Below, in pieces: positions 49,698 through 56,185 of a stretch of 64,000 nucleotides of DNA (position 1 is the first letter of the stretch; every line of letters starts with the position of its first letter). Origin of the DNA: Spirochaetota bacterium (lineage in GTDB: Bacteria; Spirochaetota; Spirochaetia; Treponematales; UBA12059); the NCBI GenBank assembly GCA_029547205.1, contig JAKPPT010000119.1, forward strand, positions 1-64,000, read 5' to 3'. A model generated the notes under the pieces. That model ran no database searches. It saw only the letters and a list, made by a program, of their open reading frames with translations, and was not told where the DNA came from. Both the position numbers and the translations under genes were made by a program.

Positions 49698-50450
49698 CTA
49701 TTTGCCTGTCATTCGATACAACAGCACTAGCAATTTAAACCAGATAAAAGGAAAAATCCTGAAGATTTTCCATGGTTTTTGAACCACATAAAACATCCAT
49801 TCTTTTCCTTTTTCAAACAGTGCACGATCTGGCCGCTCTCGTTTTTTTGCAAAGACCTCAAGAACATCTGACCCCCAGAGGTACATGCCCGAAGCAAAAT
49901 GATTCATAGTTCGATAAATCCACCGCTCGCCCCAGGGTATCCCCTTTCCAGTAAGCAGCAGTGTAGGTGTTGCTTTGCGGATTGCTTGAATTATGTTTGC
50001 ATGATACTGTTTTGGGAAATGCCCCTCATGCTTTCCTACAATCTTGAGATATGGAAATGTTTTCCGCAAATTTTCTACAGCTCGGTTTACAAGACGCCTT
50101 GTCCCGCCAAACACATACAGGGATTTTCCATAGTGTTCCAATATGGCTAGAACCTTAATAATAAAATCAAATGGCTCATACCGTATCGGTATTGGACGCT
50201 TTAAAAAAGCAGCAGCTTTGATAATCGATTTTGAAATAGGAATAACCAAACTTGCAGCCTGAACCATTGTTCTAAATTCTCCGCTGCGCCGTGCTTTAAG
50301 TAAATCAAATGTAGAGAGTAAAATGATTTGATGATTTTTCCCGTCTGCGTATAATTGTTTTATAACTTCTTCAAGTTTTTCTTCTGGTACTATATCAACA
50401 GGCACATTGAGAATGGTAATCCGCTGAATAGTTTCTATTTTGCCTGCCAT
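49698..50450 (-). CDS. WecG/TagA/CpsF-family glycosyltransferase
   Basis: 250 residues. The family core lies at about 10-200: ITILNVPVDIV, STFDLLKARRSGEF, YVFGGTRRLVNRAV with LRKTFPYLKIVGKHEGHF, and GKGIPWGERWI in place of the usual PxQE-W motif. Enzymes of this family transfer N-acetylmannosaminuronate or N-acetylmannosamine to lipid-linked GlcNAc in enterobacterial antigen or teichoic acid synthesis; the acceptor here is unknown. The basic, aromatic C-terminus (about 215-250) suits membrane attachment. It starts 16 bp inside the end of rsmE, so translation is coupled. Confidence 0.82.
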   Translation of the reverse strand: MAGKIETIQRITILNVPVDIVPEEKLEEVIKQLYADGKNHQIILLSTFDLLKARRSGEFRTMVQAASLVIPISKSIIKAAAFLKRPIPIRYEPFDFIIKVLAILEHYGKSLYVFGGTRRLVNRAVENLRKTFPYLKIVGKHEGHFPKQYHANIIQAIRKATPTLLLTGKGIPWGERWIYRTMNHFASGMYLWGSDVLEVFAKKRERPDRALFEKGKEWMFYVVQKPWKIFRIFPFIWFKLLVLLYRMTGK

Positions 50451-51307
50451 GATTCACGCTCCACAAGTAATAATTTTATTATAGCCATTACCGCTATTGC
50501 AGCTGTATCAGCACGCAGAATTGACGGCCCAAGCCAAGCCGGCACATAACCACGTTCCATAAATTGCATCAGTTCTGCATCGGAAAAACCGCCTTCAGGA
50601 CCAACACACAGTATATACTTTTGATAACTCTCATTTACAGCACTATGCACGGTATCAGTCCCTGTCTGTTTTTCATGAAAAATTAACCCGCAGACCGTTT
50701 CCTGTATCGGATAATCTTCTAAAAATTTTTGAACCGAGCAGGGTGCGCATACTTTTGTAATAACTGCAGAACCAGACTGCCCTAGCGCTTCTTTTACTAT
50801 CCGTTCGTAACGTATCAGTTTACCGGAGCTCGTTTCCCGCGGTACGCTCCGTTCTGTTTCAATGAGCTGAATCGTATTAAAACCAAGCTCTGCTCCTGCT
50901 CTTACAACATCATCTAGTTTTTGTCCCTTGAGTATTCCTACTGCAAGTATAAGCTCAGGGGCAGAACTCCTGCTCTGTGCCTGCATGTCATGTCCGATCT
51001 CAAGACCAGGAGTAGCTGCACTATGTGCTCCGTCTGCTTTTTTGGAACCGTACTTGCTACGCCTGATATCGATGTACTGCTGAGTACTTACAGAGGCAAC
51101 AGATTTTTCAGGTTCTACTCTGAGCGCTACTGTTCCTTCTTCGATTTTTTCTATCATGCACGTATACTGCCTTCCCTGCACATCGAGTGCAGGGAACGTA
51201 TCACCGGGCATAAGCCTTAAAACTTTGATTAGCCGTCTGGCTTCCTTACCAGAGAGCAGCACATGTCCTGAACCATCATACTGTTCAGGAAGTATCAATC
51301 GGCGCAT
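50435..51307 (-). CDS. rsmE: 16S rRNA (uracil-1498-N3)-methyltransferase
   Basis: 290 residues, about 45 more than usual. The N-terminal PUA-like domain (HVLLSGKEARRLIKVLRL) and the SPOUT knot (LAVGILKGQKLDDVVRAGAELG, LCVGPEGGFSDAE, GPSILRADTAAIAVMA) are clear. RsmE methylates U1498 of 16S rRNA in the small subunit. The extra residues form a low-complexity insert at about 66-116 between the two domains. It follows ctpA after 3 bases without its own ribosome site and overlaps the glycosyltransferase gene by 16 bp. Confidence 0.93.
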   Translation of the reverse strand: MRRLILPEQYDGSGHVLLSGKEARRLIKVLRLMPGDTFPALDVQGRQYTCMIEKIEEGTVALRVEPEKSVASVSTQQYIDIRRSKYGSKKADGAHSAATPGLEIGHDMQAQSRSSAPELILAVGILKGQKLDDVVRAGAELGFNTIQLIETERSVPRETSSGKLIRYERIVKEALGQSGSAVITKVCAPCSVQKFLEDYPIQETVCGLIFHEKQTGTDTVHSAVNESYQKYILCVGPEGGFSDAELMQFMERGYVPAWLGPSILRADTAAIAVMAIIKLLLVERESWQAK

Positions 51308-51310
51308 GTG

Positions 51311-52795
51311 CTATTTAGTCTGTGACCTTTGCTGCAATTCGAGAACAGACAGCGTCTGGTTTACCAGCATAGAATACTGACCGCTCTTGAGTACTTTAAG
51401 CGCTTCTTGAAGCTGCAGATCATACTCAAGATCAAACACAGGACTCATCTTTGTCCGATCAAGTTCATTTCGTACCATTTTTCGGAGTATCCGTTCAGAA
51501 ACAGTAATACCACTGCTCTTAAGCCCTTGAACAAACGCATTTATTTCTTTATCAGATGCATCAGGATTTTTTTCTGCAAAATTTCCAAAAGCGTTCTGCT
51601 CTATCAACCTGGTTAAATCTTTTTCTTCCTGCTCTGTAAGTTCCGGCTCTTTCACGATGAGATCCGGTATGATGCCCAGTTTATCAATATTTGCATCACT
51701 CGGTGTGTAGTAGCGTGACATCGTCAATTTAAAACCTGTCTTCCCTACCGGTGCAATGACCTGTTGTACAGAGCCTTTACCGTATGTGGTTTCTCCAACA
51801 AGGTATGCTCGCTTATTATCTTTGAGCGCTCCTGCAAGAATTTCCGCAGCACTCGCAGAACCTTTGTTGATAAGCACCACGATTGGCATATCCTTGCTTA
51901 CTGCAATAGAACTCTTTGCTTTGTAGACATTATTATCATATTTATTGCGAGACTTTGTAGAAACGATCACACCACTATCGATAAACATATCAGCAACTTG
52001 TACCACTGAGGAAAGCAAGCCGCCAGGATTATTGCGCAGATCGAGTATCAGAGATATGGCACCATTCTGCCTAAGCCAATCGAGCGCTTCTTTTACCCGC
52101 TGAGCGGTTTGCGGAGTAAATTCGATAATACGCAAGTAGCCGATAGTTTTATCCACCATGGCTTTTTTTACTGTAGGTATTTCGATGATCGCTCTCGTAA
52201 TGGTTTCGTTAAAACGAATATTTGCACCGCGCTGGATCGTAATTGTAACTTTTGTATTAGGTTCTCCGCGCAGCTTGCTTAAGACCTGTTCCATGGTCAT
52301 TTCTTCAGTTGATTCCCCATCAATATGGGTAATATAGTCACCAGGCTGAATACCAGCTTTCCATCCAGGCGTATCTTCAATAGGTGATACTACTTCCACC
52401 CATGCTTTTTTCCCTGCTGGCAGATTTGCAGGAAGCGGTTTTGAAATATATAAACCAATACCACCAAATTTCCCCGATGTTGTATCGTTGAGGTCATTCA
52501 ACATCTGTTCATCGAGGAACACAGAGTATGGATCATTCAAGGCTTCAAAAAGACCTTTCATAGCGCCTTCATAGAGCACCTGCGGATCAACTTCATCGAC
52601 ATAGTTCTGGAGCACATACAGATAGACACTCTGGAGTAATGAAAGGTACTCCTGAACATTCTGATCCTGAGCATTCACAGGAGGAATTGCTACCAGCGTG
52701 AATGTCAACACGAGAGCCAGTACCATAAATGAACCAATAAATGGAACAAGAGCTTTCTTTTTAAAGAGCTCTGCTTTGGATTCTAGTTTATTCAT
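51311..52795 (-). CDS. ctpA: Carboxy-terminal processing protease (S41, CtpA type)
   Basis: 494 residues. A membrane anchor or signal segment (about 17-40) ends near VNA, followed by an S41 N-terminal region, a PDZ domain (about 105-190) and the protease core. The catalytic Ser lies in GSASAAE (312-318) and the Lys is K340 in TYGKGS; LDLRNNPGGLL is typical. It trims or degrades periplasmic proteins. The start is placed at ATG 52795, not a TTG twelve codons upstream; TTGACA and TCAAAT are spaced 17 bases with the latter ending 7 nt before that ATG. It heads a unit with rsmE, the glycosyltransferase and M24. Confidence 0.93.
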   Translation of the reverse strand: MNKLESKAELFKKKALVPFIGSFMVLALVLTFTLVAIPPVNAQDQNVQEYLSLLQSVYLYVLQNYVDEVDPQVLYEGAMKGLFEALNDPYSVFLDEQMLNDLNDTTSGKFGGIGLYISKPLPANLPAGKKAWVEVVSPIEDTPGWKAGIQPGDYITHIDGESTEEMTMEQVLSKLRGEPNTKVTITIQRGANIRFNETITRAIIEIPTVKKAMVDKTIGYLRIIEFTPQTAQRVKEALDWLRQNGAISLILDLRNNPGGLLSSVVQVADMFIDSGVIVSTKSRNKYDNNVYKAKSSIAVSKDMPIVVLINKGSASAAEILAGALKDNKRAYLVGETTYGKGSVQQVIAPVGKTGFKLTMSRYYTPSDANIDKLGIIPDLIVKEPELTEQEEKDLTRLIEQNAFGNFAEKNPDASDKEINAFVQGLKSSGITVSERILRKMVRNELDRTKMSPVFDLEYDLQLQEALKVLKSGQYSMLVNQTLSVLELQQRSQTK

Positions 52796-52802
52796 GTCTA
52801 CT

Positions 52803-52831
52803 ATTTGAGCATGCAAAGCCTTTTGTGTCAA
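52803..52831 (-). promoter_or_regulatory. Putative leaderless promoter of ctpA
   Basis: On the minus strand, a consensus TTGACA (52826-52831), 17 bases, TCAAAT (52803-52808) and 7 nt precede ATG 52795. The -10 is weak. Confidence 0.4.
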
Positions 52832-52868
52832 TTCTATATAGCTCTGTGTTAAATCATATTAAACCACA

Positions 52869-53780
52869 TTATAGCAATAATCCTTCGTCGAGCGTTATAA
52901 CACTACCAGAAAAGAGCAGAACAGATGGCGAACACACAATGTCACAAACAGCACGAGCAAATTGTTCTGGCTGTGTAAATGCTTCCTGCGGCATAAGTTT
53001 TTTCCAGATGCGCTTTTGCTCTTCCGTCACGTATTCTGTTTCCACAATGCCGGGACAGATCATGATCACCGCCACACCTTTGCCCGCATATTCTCGTGCT
53101 AGTGATTTTGCAAAGACAGCGAGCCCTGTTTTTGCGCTTGCGTATACCGCATTGGTCTTATACGCATGAATGGTATCGGTTTTGGTTCCCCCAAAGAGCA
53201 CAATCACACCGGGCATTGCCTTGCCACTAGGCTGTTTTGACTCCCAGCGCTCTGCCATATATCGGGCTGCGCGTTCTGCACAGAGCGCTGGCAGTTTGAG
53301 GTTATAGAACAGCATAGCATTCCAATCCTCCAGTGTGGATGCAGCAAGTGGTTTTTGTAAAAAAGGCCCCAGCACATGCAGGTATATATCAGCATGTCGG
53401 AGCTCCGAATCGAGCATGTTTTCAAAAAAATGGCATAGCGCAGCATCTTCCGGGACTAATTCGTGTGCAATTGTTTTTACTGAAAGCTGCATGCCTGCAG
53501 GGTTTGATACCTGTCCCCTGCCAGGCATCCCCTCAAATCGCGCGCTATCAGTATGCCCCCTTCCAGGTTGTATCCCATCAGTTCGCAGCCATTCTGCTCG
53601 CAGTTCCTGAGCAAGCACATCGAGCTTGTGCTGGTTTCTCCCAAAGAGCGTGAGATCGGTATTCCGCAGTACAAGCTCGCGTGCCAGGGCTTTTCCAATT
53701 CCGCCGCTTGCCCCCAGAATTACTGCATTGTGCTTATGTTCTACGGATTGATTAAGCGCATCCGTGTTGTTTCCTTGCAT
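52869..53780 (-). CDS. Short-chain dehydrogenase/reductase with low-complexity insert
   Basis: 303 residues. The Rossmann motif GASGGIG is at 23-29, and the catalytic Tyr213 and Lys217 form YASAK. PGIVETEYV after strand six is also typical. A Gly/Arg/Thr-rich insert of about 36 residues (62-97) follows the second half of the dinucleotide-binding region, where SDRs are normally compact. Substrate unknown. TATAGT (53787-53792) ends 6 nt before the ATG and no ribosome site exists. Its promoter is interlocked with that of the divergent methyltransferase gene. Confidence 0.88.
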   Translation of the reverse strand: MQGNNTDALNQSVEHKHNAVILGASGGIGKALARELVLRNTDLTLFGRNQHKLDVLAQELRAEWLRTDGIQPGRGHTDSARFEGMPGRGQVSNPAGMQLSVKTIAHELVPEDAALCHFFENMLDSELRHADIYLHVLGPFLQKPLAASTLEDWNAMLFYNLKLPALCAERAARYMAERWESKQPSGKAMPGVIVLFGGTKTDTIHAYKTNAVYASAKTGLAVFAKSLAREYAGKGVAVIMICPGIVETEYVTEEQKRIWKKLMPQEAFTQPEQFARAVCDIVCSPSVLLFSGSVITLDEGLLL

Positions 53781-53803
53781 ACTCTAACTATATTCATTAT
53801 GAT
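53775..53803 (+). promoter_or_regulatory. Leaderless promoter of the TrmJ-like gene
   Basis: TTGCAT (53775-53780), 17 bases, TATGAT (53798-53803) and 6 nt lead to ATG 53810. The -35 overlaps the start codon of the SDR gene. Confidence 0.55.
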
Positions 53804-53815
53804 GATGCTATGCAA
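53787..53815 (-). promoter_or_regulatory. Leaderless promoter of the SDR gene
   Basis: On the minus strand, TTGCAT (53810-53815), 17 bases, TATAGT (53787-53792) and 6 nt lead to ATG 53780. The -35 overlaps the start codon of the TrmJ-like gene. Confidence 0.55.
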
Positions 53816-54607
53816 ACACCTGGTACACCTCTTGATGCTGGTATTTCTACAGATACTTCCAAAAGCGACCCACAATTTTCCAAAGCTGCAGTTGTCCTCT
53901 GCCGTGCCGAGCAAGGAGGTAATGTCGGAGCAGTATGCCGAGCAATGGAGAGCATGGGGTTTTCACGGTTGATACTGGTCCAATGCCCGGACTACGATAG
54001 TAATATAGTAAAAATGTATGCGCTCAAATCGTTCTGGATTTACGAACAAGCGCTTCGCGTTGACCATTTGCACGATGCTCTTGGTTCGTATGCGTATGCT
54101 GCAGGTTTTTCACGGCGTATTGGAGCACGCCGACAGACTTCACGAAATATTCTTGATTGGGCAGAAACACAAATCAATAGACAGACGAGCTTTGCATTGG
54201 TTTTTGGTAATGAACAGAACGGACTAAGCACCGAAGAACTCTCATGTTGCGATGAAAGTATTTATATTCCCACAGCCGAAGGTCAGCCAAGCCTCAACCT
54301 TGCACAGGCTGTTCAACTGGCTTTATGGGAATGCAGACGGCAGGTTCTCCTAAAATCATTTTTGAAACATACCTCTACCATTACCCGTGAAGTCCTTGAA
54401 ACGAGCATAGATACATTGCTCAACAGATTTGAGCCATTTTCTGTATACAAAAAACAAAAAAAAGAAGATATAAAAGCACTCATGCGTTCAATTTTTTCTC
54501 GTGCAAACTGTTCACAAAAAGAATTGCAGCGTCTTTTTGAATTTTTTGAGCAAGTTACTGCGCAAATATACATTAAAAAGCATCCAGATTCATACAAAAA
54601 AACTTGA
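53810..54607 (+). CDS. trmJ: TrmJ-like SPOUT tRNA/rRNA 2'-O-methyltransferase
   Basis: 265 residues. SpoU-family motifs are AEQGGNVGAVCRAMESMGF (motif 1), FALVFGNEQNGLSTEEL (motif 2) and IPTAEGQPSLNLAQAVQLALWE (motif 3), in the TrmJ/LasT variant. The C-terminal about 80 residues are a helical extension as in TrmJ. TrmJ methylates ribose 32 of tRNAs; related proteins act elsewhere, so the symbol is probable only. It has no ribosome site and a -10 box 6 nt before ATG 53810. The N-terminal 25 residues are Pro/Thr/Ser rich and unlike the family. Confidence 0.85.
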   Translation: MQTPGTPLDAGISTDTSKSDPQFSKAAVVLCRAEQGGNVGAVCRAMESMGFSRLILVQCPDYDSNIVKMYALKSFWIYEQALRVDHLHDALGSYAYAAGFSRRIGARRQTSRNILDWAETQINRQTSFALVFGNEQNGLSTEELSCCDESIYIPTAEGQPSLNLAQAVQLALWECRRQVLLKSFLKHTSTITREVLETSIDTLLNRFEPFSVYKKQKKEDIKALMRSIFSRANCSQKELQRLFEFFEQVTAQIYIKKHPDSYKKT

Positions 54608-54667: not shown

Positions 54668-56185
54668 ATGAGCGCACCGGAACTTGTAGTTGACGTTGCA
54701 AAAATTCGCAAAGCGGTACATTCTTCAATCCCGCTCACCATTACAACGTATACGCTTCCTCACGAAGTGGAAGTGTACATGGAACAGGTAATCGATATAT
54801 TTCTCAATGAACTTGGCCAGACAAAAATTAAAGATTATGTATCCTATTGCCTCAGAGAATTAGCAGTCAATGCAAAAAAGGCTAACACCAAACGAGTGTA
54901 TTTCGACCTTCAAGGACTTAATATACATGACCCAGTTGAATATGAAGAAGGGATGAGGAGTTTTAAGGCTGATACACTTGAAAATATAAACTTTTATCTG
55001 CAAAAACAAAAAGAAAAACAGTACTACATTAAGATAATTTTTCTTGCACGCGGAACAAATATCATTATCGAAGTTCATAACAATGCGGAAATGACTAAAA
55101 CTGAGTTTATGCGTGTACAGGATAAAATTGCACGGAGTAGAAAATATACCAGCTTTGAAGAGGCAATGGCAAAAGTACTAGATTCATCAGAAGGTGCCGG
55201 ACTCGGTCTTGTTATTCTCGTTCTCATGCTTAAAAAAATTGGACTTGAAGAGGATTGTTTTGAAATAAAAGTAGAAAATGGTGAAACGATTGCGAGGCTC
55301 AATATACCCGTTAACGCTACAAAGGTAGAAACACTCTCCATGCTCACCAACGAAATTGTGAGCAAAATTACCCGGCTTCCACAGTTCCCTGAAAATATTA
55401 TTGCCATTCAGAGGCTCATCAACGATCCTAAATCCGAAATGGTTGATATTGCACGGCACATTGCAACCGATCCAGCCATGACAGCAGATTTGCTCAAACT
55501 GGTAAACTCGGCTCAGTTTATGCTTCCCAAAAAGGTCGATAACATTATCGACGCAGTAAAACTTGTAGGACTACGCGGTATCCGCAACCTGCTCTATTCC
55601 TATGGAACGCAAAAGATACTTGCACAGGAACACGCTGTCGATCAAAAAGCGCTCTGGGATCACAGCTACCGCTGTGCTTATTACTCATACAACCTCGCTA
55701 AAAACTTTAAGCCGGGAAACAGAGCGCTCCATGATGATGCCTATGTTGGCGGCATGCTGCACGATATGGGGAAAATACTGTTTTCAGCAGTTCACCCGGA
55801 TTTGCTTGAACACATTAAAAAATTTTGTGTTTCAAAAAATATTGATACAAAATTGTTTGAGGATGTTGCAGGAGGCATGAGTCATCCTGAAATTGGCGCG
55901 CGTGTTGCAGAAAAATGGAACTTCCCCGACACACTCGTTGCGGCAATCCGCTACCACCACGAACCAGAACTCATGACAACCGACTATAAAGACATTGTCT
56001 TTACGGTTTACCTTGCAAACGTGCTCTGTGAATTTGAAAGCGGTAACATGAATTATGAACAGATAAGCCCAATCGTACTCCAGGATTTCGGATTCTTGAG
56101 CGAAAAGCAGTTTGCCCGCGTTTCAGAACAGTTCAAAAATGCCTTTGCACAGGAACTTGCAGCACAAAAAGAGAAGCGCCGGTAA
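54668..56185 (+). CDS. HATPase-HDOD fusion signalling protein
   Basis: 505 residues. Residues about 40-220 form a histidine-kinase-type ATPase fold: N-box LRELAVNAKKAN with E64 and N68, and a G-box SSEGAGLGL near 172-180. No phospho-accepting His domain is present. Residues about 235-430 are an HDOD domain (LPQFPENIIAIQRLINDP, DAVKLVGLRGIRNLL), and unlike many HDODs it keeps HD-type residues (MLHDMGK, HPEIGARVAEKW, RYHHEP). Such proteins are usually regulators. GGAGC lies 5 nt before the ATG. Role unknown; cyclic-nucleotide or motility signalling is a guess. Confidence 0.85.
   Translation: MSAPELVVDVAKIRKAVHSSIPLTITTYTLPHEVEVYMEQVIDIFLNELGQTKIKDYVSYCLRELAVNAKKANTKRVYFDLQGLNIHDPVEYEEGMRSFKADTLENINFYLQKQKEKQYYIKIIFLARGTNIIIEVHNNAEMTKTEFMRVQDKIARSRKYTSFEEAMAKVLDSSEGAGLGLVILVLMLKKIGLEEDCFEIKVENGETIARLNIPVNATKVETLSMLTNEIVSKITRLPQFPENIIAIQRLINDPKSEMVDIARHIATDPAMTADLLKLVNSAQFMLPKKVDNIIDAVKLVGLRGIRNLLYSYGTQKILAQEHAVDQKALWDHSYRCAYYSYNLAKNFKPGNRALHDDAYVGGMLHDMGKILFSAVHPDLLEHIKKFCVSKNIDTKLFEDVAGGMSHPEIGARVAEKWNFPDTLVAAIRYHHEPELMTTDYKDIVFTVYLANVLCEFESGNMNYEQISPIVLQDFGFLSEKQFARVSEQFKNAFAQELAAQKEKRR

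Follow-up and report, generated by a model that had tools for sequence, protein, structure and literature searches.

In the 64,000-nucleotide stretch of spirochaete DNA analysed here ('the window'), two genes stand head to head: a leftward gene for a short-chain dehydrogenase/reductase (SDR) and a rightward trmJ-like gene for a SpoU methyltransferase. Judged by its sequence, the right-hand product is of the SpoU/TrmJ type, though it lies below the NCBIfam cut-off (126 bits against TIGR00050 TrmJ/YjtD, where the cut-off is 167). The genes and the signals discussed below are as follows.

52869..53780, minus strand: SDR gene, starting with ATG CAA at 53780 (Pfam adh_short, E 2e-21)
53810..54607, plus strand: trmJ-like SpoU methyltransferase gene, starting with ATG CAA at 53810 (Pfam SpoU_methylase, 1.3e-24)
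53775..53780, plus strand: proposed trmJ -35, TTGCAT, the complement of the first two SDR codons
53798..53803, plus strand: proposed trmJ -10, TATGAT, N6 ahead of the ATG
53810..53815, minus strand: proposed SDR -35, TTGCAT, the complement of the first two trmJ codons
53787..53792, minus strand: proposed SDR -10, TATAGT, N6 ahead of the ATG and kept in relatives at N5-N10
53767..53772, plus strand: rival trmJ -35, TTGTTT, at spacer 16
53789..53794, plus strand: rival trmJ -10, TATATT, overlapping the SDR -10 on the opposite strand

The two ATGs are 29 bases apart. Each is the sole ATG, GTG or TTG in its own open frame ahead of the conserved domain, which leaves no start further upstream for either gene, and no Shine-Dalgarno-like site was found ahead of either in the window. 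Both genes open with ATG CAA; of the 589 genes in the genome sample that start with ATG, just 11 have CAA as the second codon. On the SDR strand, a gene for a C-terminal processing protease (S41) lies 3' of SDR and is followed by an ORF at 50435-51307, the whole run spanning 50435-53780 (minus strand). The product of this ORF, we presume, resembles an rsmE-type 16S rRNA methyltransferase; among the other loci, 10 carry a relative of it close to trmJ, and the SDR pair is present in 7 of these. Downstream of trmJ is a gene for an HDOD-domain protein (54668-56185, plus strand), relatives of which adjoin trmJ in loci L135, L136, L137 and L149.

A preliminary description of this DNA had placed TTGCAT-N17-TAT(A/G)(A/G)T-N6-ATG ahead of each gene, with starts 29 bases apart and the -35 of each promoter lying over the start codon of the other gene. 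Both points are borne out by the letters. The arrangement reads TTGCAT-N17-TATGAT-N6-ATG rightward into trmJ (53775-53812) and TTGCAT-N17-TATAGT-N6-ATG leftward into SDR (53815-53778), and read on the opposite strand each TTGCAT spells the ATG CAA of the neighbouring gene. Both -10 hexamers begin at -12 relative to their own ATG, and the two core promoters (53775-53803 and 53787-53815) share 17 bp. TTGCAT-N17-TATRRT occurs in the window exactly twice, at 53775-53803 (plus) and 53787-53815 (minus), where dinucleotide shuffles lead one to expect 0.07. As a -35, TTGCAT agrees with the consensus TTGACA at only three of six positions on either side; for SDR, the alternative TTTGCA-N18 is slightly closer (four of six).

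Whether a -10 so near the start codon means anything in this organism was examined in 804 kb of sequence, comprising the window and a further 740 kb of its genome, in which a simple ORF rule gave 652 genes. These were split by the presence or absence of a Shine-Dalgarno-like match of at least four bases, and a -10 was taken as a hexamer matching TATAAT at five or six of its six positions. Among the 157 ATG genes lacking a Shine-Dalgarno match, such hexamers begin at -12 in 16 and at -13 in 11, against a background of 2.1 per offset further upstream; among the 485 genes possessing one, the figures are 2 and 1 against a background of 7.0. The pile-up is present in both genome samples. Of the 33 leaderless-like genes that remain when SDR is left out, 10 have TTG at spacer 17 and 4 have it at spacer 18. 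Taken with the pile-up at -12 and -13, this preference for spacer 17 identifies TTGnnn-N17-TATnnT-N6-ATG as the genome's own leaderless promoter.

With matrices trained on the 33 leaderless-like genes, trmJ and SDR both being withheld, 0.06% of 29,975 ATGs exceed trmJ and 0.10% exceed SDR, and no start among 442 Shine-Dalgarno genes scores up to either. Altogether 35 of the 652 sample genes look leaderless; trmJ is outside this number, the start-picking rule having chosen an internal ATG there. One relative (G015) has a leaderless pile-up too, with a -10 hexamer at -12 in 5 of 27 genes and a background of 0.14, and in another (G014, 68% GC) none was seen at the same cut-off. Among the 94 divergent gene pairs of the sample, only one other has leaderless-like starts on both sides (G000:C130:161271-161364); its genes are 92 bp apart and are not interlocked.

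Comparison with related spirochaetes is necessarily distant. No other species of the same genus was found, and a first TrmJ search of genome contigs gave no relative; the nearest relatives belong to other genera, and their best TrmJ matches are ~40% identical over their length. A TrmJ match was obtained in 57 genomes, of which those with weak best matches were left out (G001, G007, G013, G016, G032, G036, G044 and G049), and 49 trmJ loci were examined, a fiftieth stretch (L097) being without trmJ. A second set of loci came from 579 relatives, of which 80 were retained; among the 80, L135, L136, L137, L138 and L187 were taken as repeats of earlier contigs. SDR and trmJ are head to head in 35 of the 49 loci (L014 included) and in 19 of the 80, the five repeats among them. 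As far as sequence comparison can tell, the head-to-head pair is old.

A -10 matching at least five of six positions lies N5-N10 ahead of an SDR ATG in 34 of 46 pairs, where 300 shuffles gave a mean of 1.5 and a maximum of 7. Three pairs outside the shuffle test (L014, L184 and L185) were added by hand as one hit and two misses, which brings the count to 35 of 49, the signal being absent in 14. Further off it is scarce: it lies at N11-16 in three of the 46 pairs and at N17-22 in no pair. TATAGT is the most frequent hexamer (19 of 34 entries). A -35 with at least four of six matches to TTGACA stands at spacer 17 in 10 of the 34, and no other spacer between 12 and 23 has more than two. For trmJ there are 124 loci, 114 of them having an ATG candidate; a -10 at N5-N8 is found in 41 of the 114 (shuffle mean 4.4), in 10 of the 44 loci with the pair and in 31 of the 70 without it. 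In several other genera trmJ is instead preceded by a Shine-Dalgarno site and has a longer leader, which counts against the leaderless reading, and the N10 position of the SDR -10 in genus g5 points to an mRNA with a leader of a few bases, not to a leaderless one.

A -10 at the strict cut-off stands on both sides at four loci whose gap does not exceed 45 bases, namely the window, L163, L164 and L180, of which L163 also has a possible Shine-Dalgarno match; L211 has both signals at a gap of 103. With a 4-of-6 cut-off, thirteen more loci have them on both sides, the gap ranging from 14 to 151 bases. In loci L163, L164, L180, L200 and L203 the element GCTACAAT lies at N5-N7 ahead of the SDR ATG and the two starts are separated by gaps of 44-46 bases, a second and different fixed geometry of the SDR-trmJ pair.

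These observations are best explained if SDR and trmJ are leaderless genes served by one compact divergent promoter, a reading to which we assign a probability of about 70%, the start sites and leaderless translation being predicted. Leaderless starts on both sides, as first proposed, thus find support in the genome-wide statistics and in the near-zero leaders of relatives.

The most serious competitor keeps SDR leaderless and has trmJ transcribed from TTGTTT-N16-TATATT, which would give start sites ~21 bp apart and a trmJ leader of ~9 bases. Its attraction lies in genus g5, a sister genus, in which seven pairs (L007, L008, L010, L013, L015, L017 and L019) have the same layout, with TTGnnn-N17-TATAGT/TATATT on the trmJ strand in a position that overlaps the SDR -10. 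There a single octamer, ACTATAGT or ACTATATT, serves as the -10 on both strands, much as in the published bidirectional design, described in the available text as a shared -10 with start sites 7-25 bp apart (PMC12825309, PMC10268837). TATATT and TTGTTT are retained in the window at places homologous to those in g5, and the ~21 bp falls within the published range. The proposed ~9-base leader, however, has no Shine-Dalgarno site, and TTG stands at spacer 16 in none of the 33 leaderless-like genes. The rival hexamers also score lower, at 5.1 and 3.7 against 6.8 and 4.2 for the hexamers of the TTGCAT/TATGAT promoter, in matrices that somewhat favour the main reading by being derived from leaderless-like genes. 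We regard this trmJ promoter as unlikely. In the g5 loci the trmJ-strand TTG sits in SDR codons near an Asn-Asn run, and from these sequences the promoter may fix part of the SDR N-terminus.

The mirror symmetry of the two TTGCAT motifs does not stand as a special or conserved element. TTGCAT occurs near the -35 position in one of 34 SDR promoters, that of the window itself, and it is present on both sides here because both genes start Met-Gln (ATG CAA). Genome sites with TTGCAT ahead of TATRRT number 32 at spacers 16-18 and 186 over spacers 5-35, a mild excess, and TTGCAT as a special conserved -35 is rejected in favour of its acting as one TTG-type -35 among others. In related spirochaetes the head-to-head pair and the near-zero leaders recur, but the TTGCAT mirror is not kept. 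The exact mirror is a lineage-specific coincidence atop a conserved head-to-head arrangement.

A regulatory switch, in which TTGCAT-N29-ATGCAA would be a palindromic operator and one protein would pick the direction, is very improbable. The arms are perfect inverted repeats, but they are also the start codons, TTGCAT is not retained in relatives, and the 36 TTGCAT-N14-44-ATGCAA sites of the genome (72 strand matches) show no sign of a preferred spacing; these sites and the lack of TTGCAT in relatives lead us not to favour it. Mirrored -10/ATG motifs alone are at chance level, numbering 37 in 804 kb compared with 27-40 in five Markov nulls, and their count is rejected as evidence by itself. What sets the window site apart is that both of its motifs are gene starts, for no other of the 37 is flanked on each side by an ORF of at least 80 aa; the nulls contain no genes, and their zero for two-sided ORFs is an unfair control. 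That the -10s are chance hexamers in A+T-rich DNA, with the real promoters deeper inside the neighbouring genes, would agree with this chance rate of mirrored motifs and with a generic consensus scan of 3 kb (7 sites, 5.8 expected), but the -10 enrichment is position-specific in the genome and in relatives and neither SDR nor trmJ has a Shine-Dalgarno site, so that we consider it highly unlikely.

Under the divergent leaderless promoter that we prefer, a housekeeping (sigma-70-type) RNA polymerase would bind the 41 bases in either orientation. In the rightward orientation it would use TTGCAT (53775) and TATGAT and begin transcription at the A of trmJ's ATG, and in the leftward one TTGCAT (53815) and TATAGT, beginning at the A of SDR's ATG, the two start sites being 30 bp apart. 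Each mRNA would open 5'-AUGCAA and be translated by leaderless initiation, with no Shine-Dalgarno site. Two polymerases would presumably be unable to occupy the block together because the core promoters overlap by 17 bp. By analogy with five E. coli bidirectional promoters, as described in the available part of PMC12825309, such exclusion may matter little at low firing rates. The preliminary description had gone further, requiring one regulator or polymerase to choose a direction. Nothing here points to a regulator, and at the five E. coli bidirectional promoters basal transcription was, according to the same partial account (PMC12825309), too low for competition between polymerases; a dedicated regulator is not implied by the data.

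A wider proposal is that this is a conserved spirochaete arrangement, in which one minimal promoter element would hold leaderless SDR and trmJ head to head, the first codons of each doubling as the other's -35, with N-terminal sequence tied to promoter function and a tRNA methyltransferase coupled to its partner by polymerase exclusion. In this full form we find it rather doubtful and offer it tentatively. The locus is a small case in which promoter and start codon use the same bases on both strands. If the reading is true, codon 2 of each gene would be constrained by its neighbour's -35, and annotators of Treponema-like spirochaetes should expect leaderless genes. In a literature search judged by titles and abstract openings, no description of a leaderless SDR-trmJ pair was found, and spirochaete start-site maps with leaderless mRNAs were found only for Leptospira.

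Leaderless genes themselves are well documented. In the accessible portions of two surveys, TA-led leaderless bacterial genes have a TATAAT-like signal ~12 bp ahead of the start codon and no Shine-Dalgarno site (PMC3160421, PMC5243855); Spirochaetes are listed there, with 6 of 18 genomes and a mean of 3.9% of genes (PMC3160421), and leaderless mRNAs are abundant in Leptospira interrogans (PMC5243855). SDR and trmJ, with their -10s at -12 and no Shine-Dalgarno site, resemble this class, their start sites being predicted. These surveys, in the portions available, treat single genes, whereas SDR and trmJ interlock head to head. A divergent pair with both genes leaderless is provided by prpD/Rv1129c of Mycobacterium tuberculosis, in an account that, in its available part, calls closely juxtaposed divergent promoters common (PMC3898074); the phylum and the genes differ, and the starts are mapped there and predicted here. 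Overlapping divergent core promoters that admit one polymerase at a time are described for the EcoRV restriction-modification system, but as far as the available text goes the C transcript there is not leaderless and is regulated by the C protein (PMC5333194), unlike our reading of SDR-trmJ.

The bidirectional promoters of Warman and Grainger are short pseudo-symmetrical stretches that engage RNA polymerase in two orientations; in the available text they share a -10 and have start sites 7-25 bp apart, and leaderless mRNAs are no part of their definition there (PMC12825309, PMC10268837). The two -10s of the main reading (53787-53792 and 53798-53803) are 5 bp apart and do not overlap, and the block is therefore not classed with them; a shared or overlapping -10 is obtained only with the rival trmJ TATATT. 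Of the predicted start-site spacings, the 30 bp of the main reading lies outside their range and the ~21 bp of the rival inside it. The SDR-trmJ block may still work like such a promoter. Neither leaderless genes nor overlapping divergent promoters are new, and SDR-trmJ looks like a compact combination of the two.
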